Translations under genes and position numbers: made by a program
Shown here: positions 3,711 through 33,679 of the stretch, piece after piece
Numbering within the stretch: the stretch's first letter is position 1
Layout: each line of letters starts with the position of its first letter
Source of the DNA: Candidatus Obscuribacterales bacterium
GTDB lineage: Bacteria > Cyanobacteriota > Vampirovibrionia > Obscuribacterales > Obscuribacteraceae
DNA: 33,679 nucleotides
Direction: 5' to 3'
NCBI GenBank assembly: GCA_020050685.1
Contig: JAGVKG010000061.1
Coordinates: forward strand, 1 to 33,679
Notes under the pieces: model-generated
The model's input: the letters and a program-made list of their open reading frames with translations, nothing else
What the model was told of the DNA's origin: nothing
Databases searched by the model: none

Positions 3711-4208
3711 TTAGCGAAATAAGCCACGCAAGGCGTCATTGATACTTTTGACTGTATCGTCATCGCTTTCTGGCTTGGCTTCTTCTTTAGTTTCAGCTTT
3801 GGCTGGCTCGGCTTTTGGCTCTTGAGTCTTGGATTTAGAAGGAGAGGGCGGCGGAGACTTGATTTTGCTCACCGTGCTGGTAGGTGCTGCTTCTGCTTTG
3901 GCTGGTTCAGCTGTCTTAGCTTCTTCTACCTTAGGCTCCTTTGCCTCGACCGGTGGTTTAACTTCGCTTGCCGGCGGCACTACAGGGGCTTGTGCGCTCG
4001 TAGCCACACTGGTCCAACGAGACATAATCTCAGCAATTTTTTGCCGGTCTTGAGAGACATGTTCTAGTCGTCCGGAGCAAGTCTGAACGCGTGCTTCAAG
4101 CTCTTGAATCTGCTCTTCCGCGCGACGCACTTCTGCTTGCACCAGCGCTTCTTTTTCGACAAATTCATCAATCAGTTTTTTGAAATGATCGATATCTATG
4201 GAGGTCAT
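3711..4208 (-). CDS. Coiled-coil protein with Lys/Pro/Ala/Glu-rich low-complexity tail
   Basis: Unknown 165-residue protein. Residues 8-65 form a charged heptad-like coiled coil. Residues ~70-150 are low-complexity, dominated by Pro, Ala, Lys and Glu (repeated KAE/PAK units). A short C-terminal segment (VKSINDALRGLFR) looks like an amphipathic helix and could be a binding peptide. There is no signal peptide or membrane span. It follows the nucleotidyltransferase-fusion gene by 77 bases on the same strand and may be the last cistron of that operon. AAGGAG sits about 12 bases before the ATG. Low-complexity composition makes homology-based naming unreliable, so I assign no function. Confidence 0.65.
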   Translation of the reverse strand: MTSIDIDHFKKLIDEFVEKEALVQAEVRRAEEQIQELEARVQTCSGRLEHVSQDRQKIAEIMSRWTSVATSAQAPVVPPASEVKPPVEAKEPKVEEAKTAEPAKAEAAPTSTVSKIKSPPPSPSKSKTQEPKAEPAKAETKEEAKPESDDDTVKSINDALRGLFR

Positions 4209-4285: not shown

Positions 4286-6859
4286 CTAATTCTGCTGTAA
4301 ATAGCGGATAAGCTGCGTATATTCGTTTAAATCGGCTGAAGTATGCTGCAAATCCGTGCCGTCAGCATAAACGTGCACCAGTGGTTCGACTGGGTCCGGC
4401 AATATGAGAATCCAGTGCTCTGGGCGGGTCTGAATCTTCACACCATCAAGCAATTCCATAGGCCGGTCGTGGTGTTTTTCGACAAGCAGGCGCATCAAGC
4501 GACCTTTGCGCTCCCAGGGACAATGCACCGAATCAACTTGATAGATAAGTGGTGGCAATTCTTCGCAGGCTTGGTGCAAAGTGCGCCCCTGATAAGTCAG
4601 GTGCTCGAGCACTTGCCCGGTGGCGAACAAGGCATCATAGCCATTTTGAAATTCGGGGAAAATGAAACAACCATTAGCTGAACCACCCAAGGCTGCCTCA
4701 GGTAGTTTGGCAGTGGTTGAGCCAATTTCTGTTTCGGAGGCTTTGCAGCGAACTACTTTGCAGTTATGCCGTTTGGCAATGCGTTCGATGATTGATGAAG
4801 CATTTACCGGTACGACAATTGATCGTCCAGGTTTGTCTCTCAGAACAATGTCGGAAATAACCGCAAGCAAAAGTTCGCCGCGAATAATTTGGCCAGTCTC
4901 GTCGACTAAAGTCATCTGTTCGCCATTGCGACCAATTTGCACGCCGAGATCGGCATTCAGGGCTTTGACCACGTCTGCCAATTGCTTGCGCATGGCGATG
5001 CGTTCATCTTGCCGTGGTGGCACATCTTTGATTGATGCATTCAGCACCACTGATTCAATACCAATTCTGCCCAGCAATTCTGGCAATATGACGCCAGTTT
5101 CGGCCATGGCATAGTCAATCACCACTTTTGGTGATTGATTGGTCATCACGCCTTCCTTGGTCATGCGGGTATAAGTAGAACCGGGCACCACACAAAATGA
5201 AACTTTGTCCTTTTCGAACTCTTGTCCCTTGATGTGGTTCAAATATTCGTCTATGTAATATTCGCGCACACGGCTGGGATAAGTAATGATGCCAATGTCA
5301 TTTGGTTGGCTGCGAGCAAAGTCGTTTTTGAAATATGTGCCTTCAATTTTTCTTTCCATTGCCTTGGTGACGGAAATTCCTTGGCTGTCAAAAAATTCAA
5401 TAGCAATTTTGTTAGCATCGCGCTGAGAGACACGTGTATGAATTAGCCCTTTGGCGCGTTGGGTTTTGACATAAAACCGAGCCAGTGGAAGCGGCATGGC
5501 CTCAAGGTTTTGTACTTCCACACCAACCGAGAGCAATCCGGAAACAATTGCTCGGCTGATCATGCGACTAACGCCCCAGTGATCGCGCCCGACTAGAACT
5601 GTGCCGCCTTGAATGGTGGCACCATAAGCTGCTGCTAAGCTGACGGCAAATTCCGGAGTGATTTCGATGTTGGATAATCCGACAACACCGCGGGCTGCAA
5701 AAAGCGTGCGTGGTGCGCGAGTGCCCCAAACTAGGGAAGATGTGACACGAGCACCGGCATCAACAGATTTGTTTGGCCAAATTTTTACTTCCGGAGCAAT
5801 AAAAGCTTCTTGGCCAATGGAAGTGTGGGCGCCAACGACGGCACCTTCTAGAATTTCTGCTGAACGATGAATAGTAGTGTTGTTGGCGACGATACAAGCT
5901 CTGAGGGAAACTTCGGAGCCGATGAAATTGTTGGACCAAACAACCGGTTGTTTGAGAGAAGCCTTTTCTTGAATGACCACATTGTCGCCAATCGTTGTAT
6001 TTGCTTCAATGTGAGCGGAGCGGCCAATGCGGCAGTGCTTGCCAATTAAGCTCGGTGCTTCAATTTTTACTTGCGGATCTATTTGAGTGCTTTCTCCAAT
6101 CCAGATGCGTGAACCCGGCTCGGTTTCCTTGCCGTCGATCTCAACTTCGACCTTCTGCTCTAGTACATCTTGATGTGCCTGACGATAAACTTGCAAGTTG
6201 CCGATGTCGCACCAATAACCATCTGCGACATAACCGTAAATAGGCTCATTGCGCAACATCAGAAGCGGGAAAAGATCATTGGAAAAATCTTGCTCTTTGC
6301 CCAGAATGACGTAGAGCATCACTTCGGGCTCGAGGATATAAATGCCGGTGTTAACCGTGTCAGAAAAGATTTCTGATGGACCGGGTTTTTCGACAAAACG
6401 CTGAATGCGGCTGTCGTTGTCCGTGATCACCACCCCATACTCAAGCGGATTTTCAACGCGCTTCAATACAATGGTGGCTTTGGACTTTTTCTCTTTATGG
6501 AAAGCGATGGCCTTTTGTAGATCAATATCCGTTAAGCAGTCGCCAGAAATAACCAGGAATGTTTGATCAAGTTCGTCGGAGACGGCCTTAACGCAACCAG
6601 CAGTACCAAGCGGTTTTCCGTGCTCTCTCGAATAGCGAATGTTCACGCCAAAATCAGATCCGTCGCCAAAGTAATCTTCAATTGCTTGGGGCAAATAAAA
6701 CAAAGTAAAAATGATGTCTTTGATCGAATGCTTTCTGAGGAGCGAAACAATGTGCTCGGCCATTGGCTTGTTGGCGACCGGCACCATTGGCTTGGGCAAA
6801 TGGCTAGTAAGCGGACGCAAACGTGTCCCCGAACCTCCAGCCATGATTACTGCCTTCAT
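4286..6859 (-). CDS. Sugar-1-phosphate nucleotidyltransferase fused to degenerate phosphohexomutase domain
   Basis: An 857-residue three-part protein. Residues 1-~235 are a nucleotidyltransferase domain (MAGGSGTRLRPLT, then PKPMVPVANKPM) that likely makes a nucleotide sugar such as GDP-mannose or a glucose derivative. Residues ~250-370 look like left-handed beta-helix hexapeptide repeats. Residues ~395-857 follow the fold order of phosphomannomutase/phosphoglucomutase, but each active-site loop is altered: the TASHNP-type serine loop reads HTRVSQRD (474-481), the DGDGDR metal loop reads IGRNGEQ (642-648), the GGExSG sugar loop reads GGSANG (725-730), and the RxSGTEP phosphate loop reads LPDPVEP (820-826). 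The mutase part is therefore probably not catalytic as a classical enzyme and may be regulatory or structural. AAAGGAG precedes the ATG. The gene is 12 bases downstream of the GT4 gene, in one operon. I recall similar fusions from cyanobacteria. Confidence 0.9.
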   Translation of the reverse strand: MKAVIMAGGSGTRLRPLTSHLPKPMVPVANKPMAEHIVSLLRKHSIKDIIFTLFYLPQAIEDYFGDGSDFGVNIRYSREHGKPLGTAGCVKAVSDELDQTFLVISGDCLTDIDLQKAIAFHKEKKSKATIVLKRVENPLEYGVVITDNDSRIQRFVEKPGPSEIFSDTVNTGIYILEPEVMLYVILGKEQDFSNDLFPLLMLRNEPIYGYVADGYWCDIGNLQVYRQAHQDVLEQKVEVEIDGKETEPGSRIWIGESTQIDPQVKIEAPSLIGKHCRIGRSAHIEANTTIGDNVVIQEKASLKQPVVWSNNFIGSEVSLRACIVANNTTIHRSAEILEGAVVGAHTSIGQEAFIAPEVKIWPNKSVDAGARVTSSLVWGTRAPRTLFAARGVVGLSNIEITPEFAVSLAAAYGATIQGGTVLVGRDHWGVSRMISRAIVSGLLSVGVEVQNLEAMPLPLARFYVKTQRAKGLIHTRVSQRDANKIAIEFFDSQGISVTKAMERKIEGTYFKNDFARSQPNDIGIITYPSRVREYYIDEYLNHIKGQEFEKDKVSFCVVPGSTYTRMTKEGVMTNQSPKVVIDYAMAETGVILPELLGRIGIESVVLNASIKDVPPRQDERIAMRKQLADVVKALNADLGVQIGRNGEQMTLVDETGQIIRGELLLAVISDIVLRDKPGRSIVVPVNASSIIERIAKRHNCKVVRCKASETEIGSTTAKLPEAALGGSANGCFIFPEFQNGYDALFATGQVLEHLTYQGRTLHQACEELPPLIYQVDSVHCPWERKGRLMRLLVEKHHDRPMELLDGVKIQTRPEHWILILPDPVEPLVHVYADGTDLQHTSADLNEYTQLIRYLQQN

Positions 6860-6871
6860 TTTGCTTCTCCT

Positions 6872-8164
6872 TTAACTTCTTTCCCTGGCGGGTATTAGCT
6901 CTTTTGGCAAAGTTGGCGGCAAGGTTTTTGCTGCCTCCAATAGGACTTGCTTGGGTTTGGCTGCTACGCCATCTGCACCAAGTACGCTGGCCTCGGCTAG
7001 GACTTTGTCGTAAACTTCCAAGGTGCGTTTGGCAATTACTGACCAGTTGTAAATGCTGCGCACTTTCTCGTAAGCATCCGTGCTCAAGCGCTTGTACAGA
7101 TCGTGATTTTGCAAAAGTTCGCAAATTCCCCAGGCAAGCGAGCCAGAATCACCAGTATAAGTAGTGATACCAGTGCCCATATGTTCGACAAAATCAGTTA
7201 GCCCGCCTGTGTCGGATGTGACTACAGGGACTTTGGCGGCCATGCCTTCCAGGGCAACAATGCCAAATGGTTCGTACAAGCTTGGAATGGTGACGATGTC
7301 AGCGATTTTGTACAGCTTCAATAAATCATCATCGGAGACATAGCCAAGGAAGTTGGTTAAATGGGCAATCCCGAGACTGTTTGCTTGGTCTTTTAGATCG
7401 TTGAGATAGTAGCCGTCGCCAACAAATAAGTAACGCATATTCGGGTGAGCGGCGTTGATGTGCGGTATGGCATTGAGTAAAACTTGCACACCTTTTTCCG
7501 GCACCATGCGCCCGACAAAAAGAACAATTTTTTCTTCCGGACTGACATATTTAGCTCTCAGATCTTTTTTATTCAATTCAAAATCAAAAACTTCTGGGTT
7601 GGTGCCATTCGGAATAACCACTACTTTGTCGGCCGGTACACCAAATGAATGTTGCAGTTCGCCCCACATGTGTTGGCTGTTCACAATTACTTCCCATGAT
7701 TCATAGGTCAGGCGCCATTCCATTTGGTGGATGTAACGCTGTAAGTCGTTGTGAATGCCGTGCATGCGCCCAGCTTCAGTGGCGTGCATGGTGGCAACAA
7801 TCGGAATGCCAAAGCCGGACTTCATCACCCAGGCAGCATCCGTTACCATCCAATCATGAGCGTGAACGATCGAAAATGGATTTTGTCTGTTTAACTCAAT
7901 TGCATATTGCAACATACCAAAATTGAGACGATTGACCCAGGTAAGAAAGTCCGGACAATCGTCGGTTTGATTTTTTACTCTGTGAACATGCACGCCTTTA
8001 ATAGTTTCGTGTTCGGCTTGCCCTGGATGATCGGCTGTGACAACATGGACTTCCCAGCCTGGTGTTTGAGCAATCTTGGCCGAAAGTTCTGCCACCACGC
8101 GTGCCAAACCGCCAATAATGCGTGGCGGATATTCCCAAGATAACATCAAAACACGCTTTGGCAT
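6872..8164 (-). CDS. GT4-type glycosyltransferase (glycogen-synthase-like)
   Basis: A GT-B-fold glycosyltransferase of 430 residues, cytoplasmic, predicted to transfer a sugar from a nucleotide donor. Seen motifs are GGLARVV (18-24) in the N-terminal domain, VHAHDW (100-105), GRMVPEKG (218-225), and the EX7E donor-binding pair Glu298/Glu306 within PSLYEPFGIVALEGMA. These fit family GT4, and the N-terminus resembles the starch/glycogen synthase group. The acceptor cannot be read from the sequence. It sits between gpsA (13-base gap) and the nucleotidyltransferase fusion (12-base gap), with AAGGAG before the ATG, so donor synthesis and transfer are probably co-expressed. The C-terminal ~35 residues are Ala/Pro/Lys-rich and lie beyond the fold. 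Confidence 0.88.
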   Translation of the reverse strand: MPKRVLMLSWEYPPRIIGGLARVVAELSAKIAQTPGWEVHVVTADHPGQAEHETIKGVHVHRVKNQTDDCPDFLTWVNRLNFGMLQYAIELNRQNPFSIVHAHDWMVTDAAWVMKSGFGIPIVATMHATEAGRMHGIHNDLQRYIHQMEWRLTYESWEVIVNSQHMWGELQHSFGVPADKVVVIPNGTNPEVFDFELNKKDLRAKYVSPEEKIVLFVGRMVPEKGVQVLLNAIPHINAAHPNMRYLFVGDGYYLNDLKDQANSLGIAHLTNFLGYVSDDDLLKLYKIADIVTIPSLYEPFGIVALEGMAAKVPVVTSDTGGLTDFVEHMGTGITTYTGDSGSLAWGICELLQNHDLYKRLSTDAYEKVRSIYNWSVIAKRTLEVYDKVLAEASVLGADGVAAKPKQVLLEAAKTLPPTLPKELIPARERS

Positions 8165-8177
8165 TTGGACTCCTTGA

Positions 8178-9203
8178 TCACTCTTTGGTTACGGGACGGC
8201 TGAGCAAACTCTTTAGCGCATCGGCAGGCGTGGCTTCGCCATCAATAATTGCTTTTACTTGATCAACAATGGGCATATCGATGCCGAGCTTATGCGCAGA
8301 TTCGTAAACGGCGTGACAAGTCGATGCACCTTCGGTGACTTCTCCCAGTTGTTTAGCAATTGATTCTTTGGACTCGCCTTGCGACATCTTGAAGCCAAGT
8401 TGATAATTGCGCGAAAGTGGGCTTGTGCAAGTGGCAATTAGATCGCCCACTCCAGCCACGCCAAAAAATGTTTGCGGTTTGGCACCATAAGCAGCACCAA
8501 AACGAGTCATTTCGGAAAGCGCGCGTGCCATCAAGGCCGCCTTAGCATTGGTACCAAGTTTGAGACCATCTGTGCAGCCTGAGGCAATCGCGTAAATGTT
8601 TTTCAAGGCACCAGCTAATTCCACTCCGCAAACGTCGTCGTTTGTGTACAAGCGATAAGAGGGCACACTTAAGAGACTTTGGACGAAAGCAGCAGCTGTC
8701 GCTGTCTTGCTGGCAACTACAGCGGCAGTGGGCAGACCATTGATCATTTCGACTGCCAGGTTCGGACCGGACATGGCACAGACCGGATAGCCAGGTAGAA
8801 CTTGCTCCAAAATTTCCGACATGCGCATGAATGTACTTAGCTCAATGCCTTTGCAGGCATTGACAAGAATGGGCGGCGGTGTCGCTGCCAGTTTGTTGAC
8901 AATTGGTAAGGTCTTTGTCGCGACGTCACGCACTGCTTGCGCGGTGCAACAAAAAAGGATTGCTTGCGCACCAGTGAGTGCTTTCTCTAAGTCTGTTGTC
9001 ATCGAGACTTGGCTGGGAAGTTTAATTGGAATTGGCTTTTCAATAGAATGGGTTTGGTTGAAATTCGCTTCTTGCTCGGGAAAAATTGTCCAGACGGAAA
9101 CATCGGACACAGCACCGGCAAATAAATAGGCAAGCGTGCAGCCGAATGCGCCCGAGCCAAGCACGGCGATTTTTTGCCCTTTAATATCGGAGCTAGATGC
9201 CAT
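8178..9203 (-). CDS. gpsA: NAD(P)-dependent glycerol-3-phosphate dehydrogenase
   Basis: Reduces dihydroxyacetone phosphate to sn-glycerol-3-phosphate, the backbone for membrane phospholipids. The 341-residue length is typical. The Rossmann motif GSGAFG (16-21) is in place, followed by the family motifs CKGIE, SGPNLAVE, GVELAGALKNIYAIASG (with the catalytic lysine) and GVGDLIATCTSPLSRN. The start at 9203 has AGGAA about 9 bases upstream. It is the first gene of a tight three-gene operon with the GT4 glycosyltransferase and the nucleotidyltransferase fusion, a pairing that suggests coordinated envelope lipid and glycan synthesis, though this is only inference from order. Confidence 0.95.
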   Translation of the reverse strand: MASSSDIKGQKIAVLGSGAFGCTLAYLFAGAVSDVSVWTIFPEQEANFNQTHSIEKPIPIKLPSQVSMTTDLEKALTGAQAILFCCTAQAVRDVATKTLPIVNKLAATPPPILVNACKGIELSTFMRMSEILEQVLPGYPVCAMSGPNLAVEMINGLPTAAVVASKTATAAAFVQSLLSVPSYRLYTNDDVCGVELAGALKNIYAIASGCTDGLKLGTNAKAALMARALSEMTRFGAAYGAKPQTFFGVAGVGDLIATCTSPLSRNYQLGFKMSQGESKESIAKQLGEVTEGASTCHAVYESAHKLGIDMPIVDQVKAIIDGEATPADALKSLLSRPVTKE

Positions 9204-11365: not shown

Positions 11366-14300
11366 TCAGCTGCTCCAGCGATAAAGTTGTGGGCAACTAT
11401 TTTGATCGAGAGTGTAGAAGACAATCTGGCTGTAGACGGAATATAAATAGTCGCCTGCTTTAGTCTGGTCTTTGAAATTGTAACTGGCGTATTGGTTGGT
11501 ATTAGTGAGCAACAAATGATCACTGCGCCACTTTTCCCATTGTGCTTGTGTGTAGTTGCTGACTATCTGTACACCACTGGTTACGGCAGTGCCAAATCCT
11601 GTGGCGTCGCGCGCGGCCATTCCGCGATAGAGTCCGCCTTTCATTGCCGGATCATTGTTAGCAGCCGATGTAGTTCCAGGAGGAGCAAAAGAATTTGTGT
11701 AGAGAACTTTATCCATCCAATCATTTCCGGTATAAAAGTGCATTTCTGCCCCATTGAAGGAATAGCTAACGTTGCCCGATGGATCGGTGGACACAGATAC
11801 TTTGCTCAAATCACTATTTTTGTTGCTTCCTGGTGAATCAAAAGCGGCATATGAATGCAAATTGACAAATGGTTTGGTGACGCACGAGGTTGTCGGTGGT
11901 CCGATTGGTGCTGGACATCTTAATGTCCACTCGGCAGCGAGTGCTGGATATCCTTGGGTTGCTGGAATACTATTGGACCCTTCGGCAGAGGGATTGGCGA
12001 AATAACCGGTCGAGGCAGAATAGTTGTAAGCATTGTCTCTAGCAATGCAATTCCAGACTTCCTGCAAGGATGAACCTGGTGATTTTGTTACAAGAGATGC
12101 CGTGTTTTGATAGGCAAGTTGTCCTTCCAAAACATTGTTGCCGTAAATTGTCATCTTAGGATTATCTTTGCTTATTGAACCACTGGTGCCACCAGATGTG
12201 GCATCACCTTTAACGCTGAAGACAATGATGTTTAAATTTTGTTGTGGTACAGTTCCGGCAGCTAGAGCAGGTTGTAAAAATGTATCTCGGCTTGGCCCGC
12301 TTCCGATTGCTGCTTTGCGGGACGAAACAAAAAAGAGAATAGGTGCTTCGCCTTCCTTGACCGGTGGTGCGCACCAATCTCTCACTGGGCAAGCGGCGTC
12401 TTGTCCTGTGTTAACGGGCTCTTTGCCCATAATTTCTTCTTTGGTAGCGGCTCTACCCGGTGGATAGAAATTACCACCGGCAAGCTCGTAGCTTAAGGAG
12501 TTGGCTTTGGTCACACCTAATGCTGTTAGGGCTTTCCTGTCATTCATCATTCCCAAAGAAACATTGACACCAGATGAACCATTCAACATCGCAGCCATGG
12601 CTCTTCCCAAAACAAACATGTCTTGAGTGCGTTTTTCTTCCAACTTGCAAAACTCTTCTGCCATAGATGCAGCGGCTTGGCGATCCTTTTGCATTGTTTC
12701 GCTCATCTTCTTGAGTTTTTCTTCTTCGGCTTTTACTTCACCATATTTGAGATCGAAAACTTCCTTGCCAGCTTTTATGGTTTGAGCTCCATATTGATTC
12801 ATTTCAGCAATAGCATTCCAAAAGTCAAAAAGACTTTCAGCTGGATTGCCGTTGGTAGTAACTACCCCACCGCGTTCATTCATTGCAACAACCAGTGAAG
12901 CATCCGGCAACGTCATATCAGCTGCCACATAACCAAAAACATTGGCGAATTGTCGCCTGTAAGCGTCGGGATCTTTGTCAAAGTTTCTTAGATCGCGAGG
13001 GTCGTTTACGCCGTCGGTTGGTACGTTGAACAATCCAAAGGTAACTGGATATTTTGGTGTAACGTTTGCATAGGCTGCTGGTATAAATGGATTGCCTTGC
13101 TCAAAGATTGCACTCGATGTTTGTGTGCTCCCAGCGTACAAATTAAGATCTGCGGAAAGTCCATTCACAACTGCTTCGGCATTCGGGCGCAAATAAAGTG
13201 AATGCAGCCAATCATAAACGCAATAAGCGAGTACCACACTTGGATCGTCCGTGCCTCTTGTGCGATAACTACTCGGTTCAAGCGTGGCTTTGCTGTTTGC
13301 TGGTACGGCACCACCTTTGGCGATTAACCAAGCGCCTAAACTTTGCTTATTCCAGGTGGGCGTATACGAACTTGCTGTGCCTAGCTGTGTTGCTGGTACA
13401 AGCGTTTTGTTCTGGGAATTTATTTCCGGTGGCACTGCCGTCAATTTGATCTGCGTGGAATTCATGATTGTACGTACTGATGTACAATCAGGTCCTTGAC
13501 CCTTTGGCGGCGGGCCGCCAGGCATAGCAAGTTGGAGTGTACCGGTATTGAATGCACGGATCGGACCGCCGCAAGCTGCTACGGCAGCGTTGTGCAATGT
13601 GCTGGTTGGACGGCGTGTCTCCAGTTTATCCTTCTCTTCTTTTTGCAAGTTTGCCGCGGCAATAACTTCTTGATCGACTTCAGCCCTCACCAAATATGGT
13701 GGCAGATAACCGGGCCAATTATCAACGCCACTGGGATCGGGAAATTCGCAAGCTTGTCCGCTTACCAAAGAAATCTCATTGCCGATTGGCAGGAACTGAA
13801 AATGAAATGTTCCCTGACTGCCGTTGGCAGAAAACAATACCGGCACATCAACCATCGGCCTGTAGACAGTTGTGCTGCCGGATGCAACGGAGGTGCTAGC
13901 ACCAACTTGACCAATGTTTTGTGGTGCGGGTACAGGGATGTTGGTTGTTCCTTGTGGGGACTGATACCATCCTGCGCTAAGCAGAATGTTTCCCTTTCGT
14001 TTTCCTCCGCCGAGCTTAACTTGATTCTCGTCATAAGTCCGATTGGCATCATCAATAATGCTGATGGTGTTTCCGTCCTTGTCTGAAAAAGTCATGTCGT
14101 TAAAAGCGCGAACGATTTTCTTTCGCAATGTCAGGCAATCGGCTTGAGCTCGTTGCAAGTCGTCGGCAGCCAATACAAGCATGGTTGAGCTGCCCAATTT
14201 GTTGGCAATGATTGCATCCAATCGCACGGTTGCCATCAATGTATTGATGCCGATCACCGGACGGTTATCTTTTTTGCGTGGCAGATCATCGACAAGTCCG

Positions 14301-14518
14301 ACGATGCCGAAGTGGCAACCATCTTTGTCATCAATAACGATATGGCTCATATCTTTAGCTGCCGCCAAACTGGCAGCGTCTATGGCTGTTTGTGCTTCTT
14401 TGTGAGTGCCAACTAGTTGAGCAAAATTAATTGCCAGATATGCCACTACCAAAAGCGCAAAAATTGTGATGACCACTAACACCAGCGTGTTTCCGCAATT
14501 GGATCTTGCTGATTTCAT
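11366..14518 (-). CDS. Large TadG-like pilus-assembly/secreted protein
   Basis: A 1050-residue protein with one N-terminal membrane segment (residues ~11-33, VLVVITIFALLVVAYLAI) followed by AQTAIDAASLAAAKDMS (42-58). This is the hallmark start of TadE/TadG-like Flp pilus assembly proteins. The remainder should lie outside the cytoplasmic membrane. It includes a charged helical stretch near 575-640 that could be a coiled coil, and long Gly/Ser/Thr/Asn/Pro-rich segments with about a dozen cysteines. It is two or more times longer than ordinary TadG proteins, and I see no clear von Willebrand MIDAS motif. AAGGAG precedes the ATG, and a near-consensus promoter lies 140 bases upstream. No other tad genes are in the window, so a role in pili is only suggested. 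Confidence 0.72.
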   Translation of the reverse strand: MKSARSNCGNTLVLVVITIFALLVVAYLAINFAQLVGTHKEAQTAIDAASLAAAKDMSHIVIDDKDGCHFGIVGLVDDLPRKKDNRPVIGINTLMATVRLDAIIANKLGSSTMLVLAADDLQRAQADCLTLRKKIVRAFNDMTFSDKDGNTISIIDDANRTYDENQVKLGGGKRKGNILLSAGWYQSPQGTTNIPVPAPQNIGQVGASTSVASGSTTVYRPMVDVPVLFSANGSQGTFHFQFLPIGNEISLVSGQACEFPDPSGVDNWPGYLPPYLVRAEVDQEVIAAANLQKEEKDKLETRRPTSTLHNAAVAACGGPIRAFNTGTLQLAMPGGPPPKGQGPDCTSVRTIMNSTQIKLTAVPPEINSQNKTLVPATQLGTASSYTPTWNKQSLGAWLIAKGGAVPANSKATLEPSSYRTRGTDDPSVVLAYCVYDWLHSLYLRPNAEAVVNGLSADLNLYAGSTQTSSAIFEQGNPFIPAAYANVTPKYPVTFGLFNVPTDGVNDPRDLRNFDKDPDAYRRQFANVFGYVAADMTLPDASLVVAMNERGGVVTTNGNPAESLFDFWNAIAEMNQYGAQTIKAGKEVFDLKYGEVKAEEEKLKKMSETMQKDRQAAASMAEEFCKLEEKRTQDMFVLGRAMAAMLNGSSGVNVSLGMMNDRKALTALGVTKANSLSYELAGGNFYPPGRAATKEEIMGKEPVNTGQDAACPVRDWCAPPVKEGEAPILFFVSSRKAAIGSGPSRDTFLQPALAAGTVPQQNLNIIVFSVKGDATSGGTSGSISKDNPKMTIYGNNVLEGQLAYQNTASLVTKSPGSSLQEVWNCIARDNAYNYSASTGYFANPSAEGSNSIPATQGYPALAAEWTLRCPAPIGPPTTSCVTKPFVNLHSYAAFDSPGSNKNSDLSKVSVSTDPSGNVSYSFNGAEMHFYTGNDWMDKVLYTNSFAPPGTTSAANNDPAMKGGLYRGMAARDATGFGTAVTSGVQIVSNYTQAQWEKWRSDHLLLTNTNQYASYNFKDQTKAGDYLYSVYSQIVFYTLDQNSCPQLYRWSS

Positions 14519-29964: not shown

Positions 29965-32900
29965 TTAGTTGCCTTGAGCTACTACTCCAGGCTCTTCATC
30001 TTCATAGACATCGCCAGTATCGACAACATCACCACCAGGATTACCCAGTCTGCCGAAGAAGCGTACTGGCTCTGATGGAGACGATGATGATTCTGTGGTC
30101 GTGGAAGAAGTACCCGTATTCGTGAGCTGATCTGTACCAAGATCTGTCATCGTGGCATCTACGACTGTTGGTGATAGTAGAGCACCAGTTGCCGCATCAT
30201 AGACTTGCCCGGTGTACATATCTACGTAAGTTCCTTCTACCGGATCCAAGAGTACTACATCTGGCGGATCGGCTGTGATCTTGGAGTTGCCTTGGAGTTG
30301 TATGGCAGATGCTGACCTTCCACCGGTACTAAAGACCATCTTGGTTCTAATTGCATATAGATTGCTAACCGCACCATTTGCCGTAATGCCCTGGGCGCCG
30401 AAGTAAATCTTGCCACCATTTGATAGATTGACAGTTACATTCGATGGTGCGGTACCTAAAACTGGGCTTGCAGGAATGGCGCCAATGACGATATAAACAT
30501 TGCCTAAGACCGTGCTCTTCTTGGTGTAAGCAAAGATATCCGTGTTTTGACCAATGCTGATTGTGCCGGTTGAAGTATCCATATTTTGCAATATGATGTT
30601 ACCTTCATTGGCATACATTATGGCGCCGTTAGCCACATTCAGAGCTACTGATTGACCCACGGCATTTGTACCAGCAACCAATGAAATCGAGCCCAAGCCA
30701 GCATCAATTGAACCTGCAGTTAGCCCGGAGTTTGTCGTAGTTACAGAGTAATAGGTTCCGGATTTTCCAGAGATTGTTCCACTGATTCCAGCTTGATTGA
30801 CGACAACAGAGCTGGACTTGCTGTTTATGCTTAGTCCACCTGTGGCAGTTATGTAACCAGTGCCACTAACCGTCATGCCATTGTCTCCTTTTAGTGTCAA
30901 GGCGCCAGACGTCGTGATTGTGCCGGTGTTTGCAAACGTATGGACGCCGCGAGTAGCGGTGAATGATAAGGATGGAGCAGTCACGCTGCCGGAATTTGTC
31001 AGGCTAAGTGTTCCGCCTGTCGTATCAAGGCTCACCAACGTACCGCCGCTCAATGCGCCAGCATTCGTAAGGGTTAGGCTGCCGCCATGATTCGAAATCA
31101 GCACCTGACCATTAGTTGCTCTGACAGTACCGCTGAAGTTGAATGTTTGATTGGTTTGTCCGCCACCGTTATTGGTCACCGAAATATTTTGATTGGCAGT
31201 TAAGTTGCAGCAGCTCGTAAAGTTAATGTCTCCACCATTGTTGGTCATGACGAAACTTCCGTTTAGGCTTTCAATTGTTCCCTTGTTTGTGAAGTAAGTT
31301 GTTTCTCCGCCGACACCGTTGCTGGTGATGGTTACATCTTGTGATGCTGAAATTGTGCAGAGGTTATTTACGGTAACCTTGCTGCTGTTTGATCTTGCAC
31401 TGAAGCTGCCGGTTTCGCTGACCATGCTGCCGGAGTTATTCAGGTCGATGCCACCGTTAGTATGCGATCCACCACCATTGGAAAGTAAGCTCAATCCCTG
31501 ATACGCGTCGACAATTCCTGAGTTGTTCAAGGTGAATCCGCCACCATTGGTAGTGAAGTTGACTTGTCCGGTCATGCTTTCCATGGTTCCGGAGTTGTTG
31601 AACATGGCGACACCCTGACCGGTGATGGACAATGTACCGACTGCTGACATGACACCAGCTCCGGCTGTTGGTATGTAAGCGCAGAATCCGCAACCACCTG
31701 GGAATTGTTGTTCGCCTGCTACACCAGTGTTATTGATAGTCAGATTCGTTCCATTGATGTTCAATCCGCCGGCAGAGTCAATTACTCCGGTATTGTTGAC
31801 TGTCAGGGAGCCAGAGCCTGCAAATGGTGTAATGCCACAGCAGGTTGGTGCGGTGGTGGTTGGTTGATTGGTGATTGTTATATCGCCAACCGTGCTAACC
31901 AAAGTTCCGGCGTTGTTCAGCAAGCCTGTATCAAGAACTAAACTTGGGGCAGAAACGGTTGTATCAGCTTCAATGTTAATTGTGCTGCTGGCCAAAGTTA
32001 GTGTGCCACTGGTTTGTGTCACATCGGCACCGGCTTCTAATGTAAGATTGCCTGTACCGCTGGCAAATACCAATGTTTGTGCGCTTACTGAACCAATTGT
32101 CAGGTCGCTGTTGTAAGCACCAGCCATAAATGTGGTTGCGGCACTACCGCTTATTGCACCATTGATAATGTTCTGACAAACGGTAACTGAGCTTGTGTCG
32201 CTGACAAAATTCAGTCCATTGGTTCCGGTCAAGGTGCCGGTGCCGCTTACATTGACACTCGAATTGTTGTACATGGCGACCGTTGCACCAGACATCGTTC
32301 CATTATTCAGCACATTCAACGCTCCGGCCATGTTGTTCACAGCAAGCGCATCTCCGGCAGAAACGAGGCCGGTGTTTGTAATCGTGGTACCAGTACCACC
32401 TGTGCCTGTCATTGTAATGTCAGCGCCTGCAGCAATGGTCCCGGCAAATGATGCATTGCCATTAAATGCTAGCGACATATCACCTGTTGCAGAAAGCAAG
32501 CCAGTCGAAGCAACTTGCAGAACAGGACCAGCTTGATCGGAGCTGATATTCAAGGCGCCTGATCCCATAAATTCTTGTGTGCCAGCAATGTAGACATAGG
32601 AAGTTGTGCTATTGCCATCGATGTTGATGTTGATCGGTGAACCAAGCGAGAAGCCCTGCATGGTAATTGTTACGTTGCCTGGGATATTTTGAGCCGTAAG
32701 TTCAGGTGCAAGATCTGATGGATCAATGATTACATTGCCACCGATTCCCACTCCGCCAGAAACCTGTAAGGTGCCACCCAATGTTCCCAGACCTTGAAGC
32801 GTTAGGATGAGGCTTGTAATGTCGGGATCCGTAAGGTCGAGACTATCCAATACCGTTGGTGTTACTGTGCTTGGTGCATTGGCTTCGATAAGGACATCGC

Positions 32901-33679
32901 CGTTAAGCACAATGTGGCTAGAATCGGCTGGCGATGTGTCAAGGACTATAGTGCCGCCATCTGCCACCGCTGTGTTGGTGCCATTGGCTGTGACATTATT
33001 ATCACCAAGATAAACTTGTCCACCATTTAGCTCCATTTGATTAACATTTGCATTGGTGTTGGATCCCGGCGTTGCATCGCCAATTGTAATTGTGACATTA
33101 CCAGAGCCTGTGGTATCACTATCGGCTGTAACTGTGCTTCCTGTATTCAAGACGATGTATCCATTGGCTGAGTCATTATTTTGAATTAGGACATTGCCTT
33201 CTGTGGCGGAAATGGTTGCACCGGCATCGACATTCAAGTTTCCGGTATTTGTCGTAATTGATACAGAACCATCCGTAGAAGAAACGTTGCTAGTGTCGAT
33301 ACCTGTATTGGCGGTTAGGGTCACATCTGCACCAGTGACACTTGCATTATTATCGATGTTGCCACTGGAGGATAATGTCACGGAGCCATCGGCAGTGGTG
33401 TTGGCATTTATGACCAGGCTATCTCCAGCACTGAGAGTAGCATCGTTGGATGCATCTACCGTGCCATTAACATTCAATGTCGTGTCAGCTGTCAATGTAA
33501 CGTCGGTACCAGATACATTGCCGGTCGTTAGGTCATTGCCAGAGGACACTGTGAAGGAACCACCAGCGGTGCCGTCCAACGTTCCGTTGAAGTCAGATTG
33601 AGTTGCATCAACATTGCCACCAGCCGTGAGCGTTATCGTATCGCCAGCAGAGGTTGTACCGGTGCCGCTGAGGTTGGTA
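29965..33679 (-). CDS. Giant beta-helix adhesin/exoprotein-like protein, C-terminal part (5' end outside window)
   Basis: An open frame of 1238 codons that is still open at the window edge, so the start is missing. The composition is extreme: Gly, Ser, Thr, Asn, Val and Leu dominate, Lys and Arg are rare, and short strands alternate with N/G turns (NNSGT, GGSLTLTNAG and similar). This is the look of a right-handed parallel beta-helix as in filamentous-haemagglutinin/large exoprotein families. A ~110-residue module near 32880-33201 is repeated in diverged form at 30262-30606 by the C-terminus. The last ~85 residues are non-repetitive, contain RFFGRLGNPGGD and end acidic; I see no autotransporter barrel or sorting motif. 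Several Cys pairs (CC, CGFC) are unusual for this class. Cell-surface or secreted location is inferred. Confidence 0.8.
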   Translation of the reverse strand, partial: TNLSGTGTTSAGDTITLTAGGNVDATQSDFNGTLDGTAGGSFTVSSGNDLTTGNVSGTDVTLTADTTLNVNGTVDASNDATLSAGDSLVINANTTADGSVTLSSSGNIDNNASVTGADVTLTANTGIDTSNVSSTDGSVSITTNTGNLNVDAGATISATEGNVLIQNNDSANGYIVLNTGSTVTADSDTTGSGNVTITIGDATPGSNTNANVNQMELNGGQVYLGDNNVTANGTNTAVADGGTIVLDTSPADSSHIVLNGDVLIEANAPSTVTPTVLDSLDLTDPDITSLILTLQGLGTLGGTLQVSGGVGIGGNVIIDPSDLAPELTAQNIPGNVTITMQGFSLGSPININIDGNSTTSYVYIAGTQEFMGSGALNISSDQAGPVLQVASTGLLSATGDMSLAFNGNASFAGTIAAGADITMTGTGGTGTTITNTGLVSAGDALAVNNMAGALNVLNNGTMSGATVAMYNNSSVNVSGTGTLTGTNGLNFVSDTSSVTVCQNIINGAISGSAATTFMAGAYNSDLTIGSVSAQTLVFASGTGNLTLEAGADVTQTSGTLTLASSTINIEADTTVSAPSLVLDTGLLNNAGTLVSTVGDITITNQPTTTAPTCCGITPFAGSGSLTVNNTGVIDSAGGLNINGTNLTINNTGVAGEQQFPGGCGFCAYIPTAGAGVMSAVGTLSITGQGVAMFNNSGTMESMTGQVNFTTNGGGFTLNNSGIVDAYQGLSLLSNGGGSHTNGGIDLNNSGSMVSETGSFSARSNSSKVTVNNLCTISASQDVTITSNGVGGETTYFTNKGTIESLNGSFVMTNNGGDINFTSCCNLTANQNISVTNNGGGQTNQTFNFSGTVRATNGQVLISNHGGSLTLTNAGALSGGTLVSLDTTGGTLSLTNSGSVTAPSLSFTATRGVHTFANTGTITTSGALTLKGDNGMTVSGTGYITATGGLSINSKSSSVVVNQAGISGTISGKSGTYYSVTTTNSGLTAGSIDAGLGSISLVAGTNAVGQSVALNVANGAIMYANEGNIILQNMDTSTGTISIGQNTDIFAYTKKSTVLGNVYIVIGAIPASPVLGTAPSNVTVNLSNGGKIYFGAQGITANGAVSNLYAIRTKMVFSTGGRSASAIQLQGNSKITADPPDVVLLDPVEGTYVDMYTGQVYDAATGALLSPTVVDATMTDLGTDQLTNTGTSSTTTESSSSPSEPVRFFGRLGNPGGDVVDTGDVYEDEEPGVVAQGN
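30262..30606 (-). repeat. C-terminal copy of a duplicated adhesin module
   Basis: Encodes a module starting EGNIILQN and running through GNVYIVIG, LSNGGKIYFG, ITANG and IQLQGNSKITAD. The same landmarks occur in the same order in the copy at 32880-33201. Confidence 0.6.
32880..33201 (-). repeat. N-proximal copy of the duplicated adhesin module
   Basis: Encodes EGNVLIQN, GNVTITIG, LNGGQVYLG, VTANG and IVLNGDVLIEA in that order, matching the landmarks of the copy at 30262-30606. Confidence 0.6.

Follow-up and report, generated by a model that had tools for sequence, protein, structure and literature searches.

A sugar nucleotidyltransferase fused to a probable pseudo-phosphohexomutase in Cyanobacteriota and other bacteria

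The contig JAGVKG010000061.1 of a Candidatus Obscuribacterales bacterium (assembly GCA_020050685.1), analyzed over its positions 1 to 33,679 and hereafter called the window (33,679 nucleotides), carries on its minus strand a gene for a protein of 857 amino acids (aa) in which a nucleotidyltransferase (NTase) domain, a left-handed beta helix and a region with the fold of alpha-D-phosphohexomutases follow one another (Table 1). Judged from its sequence, this protein is best explained as a sugar-1-phosphate NTase, that is, a nucleoside diphosphate (NDP)-sugar pyrophosphorylase presumably active as such, with a C-terminal pseudo-phosphohexomutase. Pfam placed NTP_transferase at residues 2-234 (PF00483; 8.6e-57, 193 bits against a cut-off of 21.2), LbH/hexapeptide repeats at 252-367, PGM_PMM_I at 386-515 (2.9e-22) and PGM_PMM_III at 661-769 (2.9e-10), with PGM_PMM_II at 572-656 (3.6e-6) slightly under its cut-off (27.9 versus 29.3 bits). 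The NTase half retains GGxGTRLxPxT, K23-P24, D107, E157-K158-P159 and D218, residues that are conserved in the family and that presumably serve NTase function. None of the 25 curated NCBIfam models shown scored the protein over its own cut-off, the top ones being Arch_GlmM (247.5 bits, 439 required) and the Rv-type mannose-1-phosphate guanylyltransferase NF052502 (243.9 versus 440); GlgC (TIGR02091) reached 127.7 bits against 424.9.

In an AlphaFold2 model built from the window protein and 61 homologues (mean predicted local distance difference test score, pLDDT, 90.4; predicted template-modeling score, pTM, 0.78), the C-terminal half adopts a complete four-domain mutase fold. The predicted structure of this half matches whole phosphohexomutases, including 9du5_C (Z 46.1, 441 residues, root-mean-square deviation (rmsd) 2.2), 2fkm (Z 41.8) and 9du5_A (TMt 0.91), and that of the N-terminal part matches human GMPPA/GMPPB (7d72; Z 42.0, 351 residues, rmsd 2.2). 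No structure covered both halves among the fold-search rows listed. The original prediction, made from the nucleotide sequence of the window, that the order of the mutase fold is kept in this half is thus borne out by the model.

Table 1. Features of the fused gene and its upstream neighbors in the window
Feature	Position	Strand	Remarks
Whole fused gene	4286..6859	minus	857 aa: NTP_transferase, left-handed beta helix, pseudo-phosphohexomutase
NTase domain	6140..6859	minus	residues 1-240; Pfam, conservation counts, fold match
Left-handed beta-helix domain	5735..6139	minus	residues 241-375; Pfam, AlphaFold2 model
Probable pseudo-phosphohexomutase domain	4289..5704	minus	residues 386-857; complete four-domain fold, no catalytic loops
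Former phosphoserine loop HTRVSQRD	5417..5440	minus	residues 474-481; Ser478 retained
Former metal loop IGRNGEQ	4916..4936	minus	residues 642-648; no Asp
Former sugar loop GGSANG	4670..4687	minus	residues 725-730
New family signature CPWERKGRLMR	4490..4522	minus	residues 780-790
Former phosphate loop LPDPVEP	4382..4402	minus	residues 820-826
GT4 glycosyltransferase gene	6872..8164	minus	directly upstream of fused gene, 12-nucleotide gap; Pfam/NCBIfam
NAD(P)H-dependent glycerol-3-phosphate dehydrogenase (GpsA)	8178..9203	minus	next upstream, same strand run

The four catalytic loops of the mutase were located by alignment to solved mutases. Against 1wqa, TASHNPPE falls on HTRVSQRD, DGDADR on GRNGEQ (643-648), GGEENG on GGSANG and ASGTEP on PDPVEP (821-826). 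Since the motifs align at the positions named in the original prediction, those are the true loops, and the family-wide alignment also puts them there and not elsewhere in the protein. In place of T-A/G-S-H-N-P the window protein reads HTRVSQRDA, and neither D-G-D-x-D-R (GRNGEQ instead), G-E-x-S-G (GGSANG) nor R-x-S-x-T-E-P (LPDPVEP) is present. The earlier statement that every active-site loop is lost holds for the metal, sugar and phosphate loops, and slightly overstates the case for the serine loop: Ser478 lies on the column of the catalytic serine, which is Ser in 15/15 active mutases, so that what has been lost here is not the nucleophile itself but its companion residues His, Asn, Pro and Lys (positions 479, 480, 481 and 488).

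The same replacements extend across the family. A joint alignment comprised 15 active (intact) mutases and 138 fused rows, among which L015 was empty and L018, L094 and L141 were partial, with L105 and L129 (contig ends) dropped. Ser-His-Asn, the three metal Asp residues and the Arg-Ser-Thr of the phosphate loop, as well as D647 and T824 individually, occur in none of the 138 fused rows and in all 15 active mutases; E727 and S729 of the sugar loop occur together in 2/138. A further 24 fused rows, representing 24 of 26 loci (L207 and L218 omitted), of which one is L015 and the other 23 come from the phylum to which genome G211 belongs, contain no Ser-His-Asn, no metal triad and no Arg-Ser-Thr, with a single T824. 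The two counts together cover 161 fused homologues, a few of them partial, and because the replacement recurs in every homologue read in frame, it is not a matter of chance. On the other hand, residues of structural character, namely D426, Y535, D582, G639, G656, D742 and G806, are common to active and fused rows. Taken as a whole, the C-terminal domain is very probably a dead mutase, one that would show no mutase activity in vitro, and the earlier proposal that it is retained without classical activity is strengthened to that of a strongly conserved, family-wide pseudo-mutase.

In addition to these losses, the domain has gained conserved residues. The family signature consists of C-x4-K-G-x2-M-R, conserved Arg residues and a P-D loop. 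Among the fused rows, C780 is kept in 130/138, K785 and G786 each in 134/138, and M789 and R790 each in 133/138; K785, G786 and R790 also occur in all 24 additional rows. Further conserved positions, mostly absent from active mutases, include R425 (134/138), R436 (133/138), R461 (135/138), R516 (131/138), P684 (137/138) and R704 (128/138). A new conserved Arg, R476, stands within the former phosphoserine loop (118/138), and P821-D822 occupies the former phosphate loop (134/138 and 123/138). A signature so conserved and so largely basic suggests that the pseudo-mutase domain has taken on a new binding function. Selection on the domain is strong: across 23 family homologues, mean identity to the window protein was 79.1% for the NTase, 76.7% for the pseudo-mutase and 57.9% for the beta helix, and the ratio of nonsynonymous to synonymous substitution rates (dN/dS) of the pseudo-mutase was 0.006-0.035 in pairs with estimable dS, several saturated dS values yielding no ratio.

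The fused gene is widely distributed. A fused open reading frame (ORF) of at least 800 aa was present in 60/117 genomes drawn from Cyanobacteriota and absent from small-genome class-mates. The source genome of the window contains no photosystem D1/D2 genes, which suggests a non-photosynthetic member of the phylum; such genes were found in 8/17 same-phylum genomes tested, and in a control of 14 named genomes only Synechococcus elongatus was positive. Beyond Cyanobacteriota, Actinomycetota (Nonomuraea, Streptomyces) carry full-length homologues. Homologues on named contigs, whose phyla are taken from record titles and many of which are metagenome-assembled genomes, come from Campylobacterota, Deferribacterota, Aquificota, Thermodesulfobacteriota, Elusimicrobiota, Zixibacteria, Kryptoniota, Methylomirabilota, Armatimonadota and others; they represent 80 of 587 matches, with Bacillota, Chloroflexota and Deinococcota left out except for one Erysipelotrichia-titled contig (L147). 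No fusion with an intact mutase was encountered among all the fused homologues read, those from Cyanobacteriota and those from this sample included. A tree built without the loop columns set 46 pseudo domains apart from 23 active mutases by one branch (SH-aLRT 99); its rows were a hand-picked subset, and the method, a quick one, gave warnings about long branches and composition. Within these sampling limits, the split fits one old inactivation of the fused mutase.

Catalytic mutase work appears to be done by other proteins. Besides the fused protein, the source genome of the window encodes a single PF02878 protein, whose loops are intact (445-1938 on the minus strand of contig C44), and most family relatives have 2 to 5 PF02878 proteins. 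This sole intact mutase is of the FGTDGWR type and scores below the GlmM equivalog cut-offs, so that no separate GlmM was seen in the assembly, which is 98.7% complete. The same genome also encodes, on contig C21 (115354-116382), a free-standing 344-aa NTase without a mutase domain, 41% identical to the N-terminal part of the fused protein.

Active mutases also appear as neighbors of the fused gene in some lineages. Neighboring ORFs were called with a simple longest-ORF script and grouped into single-linkage clusters that may merge distant families; for example, cluster 12 holds two mutase types, and cluster 0 joins the GT4 of the window with GlgA at only ~24% identity. An intact mutase of the FGT[DS]GWR type lies directly downstream in 6/75 named loci (L121, L123, L136, L137, L144 and L149), which belong to Elusimicrobiota, one FCPU426 contig and one deltaproteobacterium. 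Among phylum-mates without Photo_RC, such a mutase is the next gene in L013 (2864-4288, with an 8-nucleotide overlap) and L018 (1043-2437), where overlap or direct adjacency suggests translational coupling of the dead and the live mutase. In L083, a true phosphoglucomutase (PGM; TIGR01132, 824 bits, over cut-off) is directly upstream, and L084, L088 and L099 have a gene of its cluster at the same position.

A second recurrent context is that of glycogen genes. Glycoside hydrolase family 57 (GH57) occupies the position immediately downstream in 34/75 named loci, part of which then carry GH57/4-alpha-glucanotransferase, a GalT-like gene and GlgA; this arrangement is seen in Campylobacterota, Deferribacterota, Aquificota, Geobacter relatives and WOR-3. 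GlgC over cut-off was absent from 11/14 genomes reached through the named loci (assembly completeness not stated), and together with the glycogen-cluster context this indicates that the substrate there is probably glucose-1-phosphate. A search of the literature on glycogen or GH57 together with Geobacter found nothing on point.

In the own family and order of the window organism, the constant neighbor is the GT4 gene, which precedes the fused gene in 20/20 loci at 60-71% identity, whereas no GT4-cluster gene lies within four ORFs in any of 20 same-phylum loci outside its class (L154-L173). The earlier suggestion of a scaffold for this enzyme is accordingly possible within the family and order and fails as a general role. 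Just downstream of the fused gene, 3711-4208 (minus) encodes a small charged, proline/lysine-rich protein with no Pfam or NCBIfam match, relatives of which follow the fused gene in several family members. Elsewhere in the window, 11366-14518 (minus) encodes a 1050-aa protein whose sole Pfam match is a short N-terminal TadE/G-like (Tad) stretch, and 29965-33579 (minus) is a 1204-aa ORF with a TTG start and no Pfam match at 1e-5.

A regulatory role would best accommodate these observations. On this reading the mutase fold is kept whole, canonical phosphoryl transfer is very probably lost, and the domain has acquired new conserved residues, most of them basic. The allosteric sensor of sugar phosphates raised in the original prediction would be compatible with such a role. 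By binding a phosphorylated sugar, for which hexose phosphate or glucose-1,6-bisphosphate may be guessed, or alternatively by docking an active mutase partner, the pseudo-mutase would regulate the NTase; NDP-sugar output would then track hexose-phosphate supply, with separate, intact mutases furnishing the sugar-1-phosphate. The fold matches include structures that may serve as precedents, namely GlmM-CdaA, GMPPA/GMPPB, VTC1-KJC2 and eIF2B with sugar-phosphate activation (7kmf, by its title), whose functions are in part presumed here. That the pseudo-mutase is the regulatory domain of an NDP-sugar pyrophosphorylase, through a ligand or a partner, is given roughly even chances. The glycogen cluster with PGM and GlgA, the 11/14 genomes without GlgC and the adjacency of FGT[DS]GWR mutases prompt a broader proposal, in which the dead mutase would act across bacteria as an internal sensor for hexose phosphate or glucose-1,6-bisphosphate and, in species without GlgC, would take the place of GlgC-type allostery as the point at which NDP-glucose and glycogen synthesis are controlled; this version is speculative and on balance unlikely. 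Several observations weigh against a regulatory pseudoenzyme: Ser478 is present in the window protein, with Ser at that position in 75/138 fused rows; only a minority of the loci show linkage to an active mutase, and the same-phylum loci L154-L173 show none; and lineages outside the sample, such as Bacillota, Chloroflexota and Deinococcota, could hold a fusion with an intact mutase among the matches beyond the 80 of 587 listed.

The dead mutase might instead be a structural scaffold that sets the oligomer geometry or stability of the NTase and binds no small ligand. Other beta-helix NTases are found complexed with a related second subunit (GMPPA/GMPPB in 7d72 and VTC1-KJC2 in 8yre), and the pseudo-mutase domain is folded in the model and conserved; however, a pure spacer has no obvious need for R476 in the former catalytic loop or for P-D in the former phosphate loop, and this explanation is considered doubtful. 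A comparably low probability attaches to the domain serving as a docking platform alone, pairing with an active mutase as a heteromer or with the neighboring glycosyltransferase and channeling sugar phosphate. The adjacency of an active mutase in several phyla, the GT4 gene next to the fused gene in all 20 family and order loci, and GlmM-CdaA complexes in which, by their titles (7olh, 9g69), the mutase fold is a protein-binding unit all speak for docking, but different lineages have different partner genes, and 20 same-phylum loci have none as an immediate neighbor. The estimates for regulation, pure scaffolding and docking alone overlap.

Far less probable is a live mutase or phosphoryl-transfer enzyme with a relocated site (Ser478, E647 or other acids), or with new chemistry. 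The alignment of Ser478 to the nucleophile, the high conservation of the domain, and acidic residues at 647 (Glu in 104/135 rows) and 643 (Asp in 34/138) could be read in its favor, yet no row has the metal-ligand triad or the Arg-Ser-Thr of the phosphate loop, and the domain remains conserved although the serine is missing from nearly half of the rows, with His in its place in most photosynthetic ones. New chemistry, raised in the original prediction, found no support. A decaying relic or a sequencing or assembly artefact of one genome, for which only the lost loops speak, has a negligible probability, as the loops are lost in all fused homologues read, dN/dS does not exceed 0.035 and the listed fused-gene matches contain no internal stops.

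A family-wide pseudo-mutase would bear on how the family is annotated. The fusion itself is already known to annotators; no published report of an inactive fused mutase or of family-wide inactivation was found in the open-licence literature. A widely annotated "bifunctional" family may be re-read as one enzyme with an old, strongly selected pseudoenzyme domain, and pathway models that count the fused gene as a phosphomannomutase or phosphoglucomutase would be corrected. The family signature supplies a defined pattern to look for, and bacteria without GlgC offer a testable case for the control of NDP-glucose and glycogen supply.

Among known systems, the alpha-D-phosphohexomutases (PMM/PGM, GlmM; PF02878-PF02880), of which the archaeal type (1wqa/9du5) is nearest, share the fold, the domain order and the structural Asp, Tyr and Gly residues; the fused domain differs in its four rewritten catalytic loops, its new Arg/Lys and KGxxMR signature and its fusion to an NTase. 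The CDD model cd05805, presumably named MPG1_transferase, and "bifunctional" mannose-1-phosphate guanylyltransferase-phosphomannomutase annotations such as SCO1388 probably describe the same domain layout; contrary to such annotations, the mutase half should be unable to work classically in any member read. Synechocystis Slr1334 (cd05800) is presumably a glucose-1,6-bisphosphate-making enzyme. One study reports a prokaryotic phosphohexomutase family producing glucose-1,6-bisphosphate and sets cd05805 aside as catalyzing distinct reactions (PMC9426568). Judging from their motif, the neighboring FGT[DS]GWR mutases may belong to that glucose-1,6-bisphosphate-making family.

SCO1388 is called apparently bifunctional in another report, in which disrupting the gene had no effect on phage sensitivity and added no phenotype in double mutants (PMC5982138). 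The layout described there and the Streptomyces homologues L070, L071 and L073 suggest that SCO1388 belongs to the fused family. A Streptomyces pyrophosphorylase of the GDP-mannose type can make GDP-glucose as well (PMC5247666). A one-base frameshift in Synechocystis sll1496, annotated as a mannose-1-phosphate guanyltransferase, distinguishes laboratory substrains (PMC10068330). A literature search for sll1496 gave a single hit, a table of substrains. If sll1496 is the fused gene, that gene is dispensable in culture. This identity is presumed here.

Other likenesses concern noncatalytic partners. GMPPA/GMPPB and VTC1-KJC (7d72, 8yre) are eukaryotic GDP-mannose pyrophosphorylases controlled by a noncatalytic relative, and thus resemble the window protein in joining an NDP-sugar pyrophosphorylase to such a partner; in those systems a paralogous NTase subunit is the inactive partner, whereas the window protein has a fused mutase fold in that place. 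PGM5 (aciculin; 6y8x), an inactive animal pseudo-phosphoglucomutase, likewise keeps the mutase fold without an enzyme role, but is an unfused animal paralogue of another lineage and sequence. GlgC, the ADP-glucose pyrophosphorylase that forms the controlled step ahead of glycogen synthase, shares the combination of NTase and beta helix, from which the window protein departs in its score against the GlgC model (127.7 bits, cut-off 424.9) and in its extra C-terminal domain.

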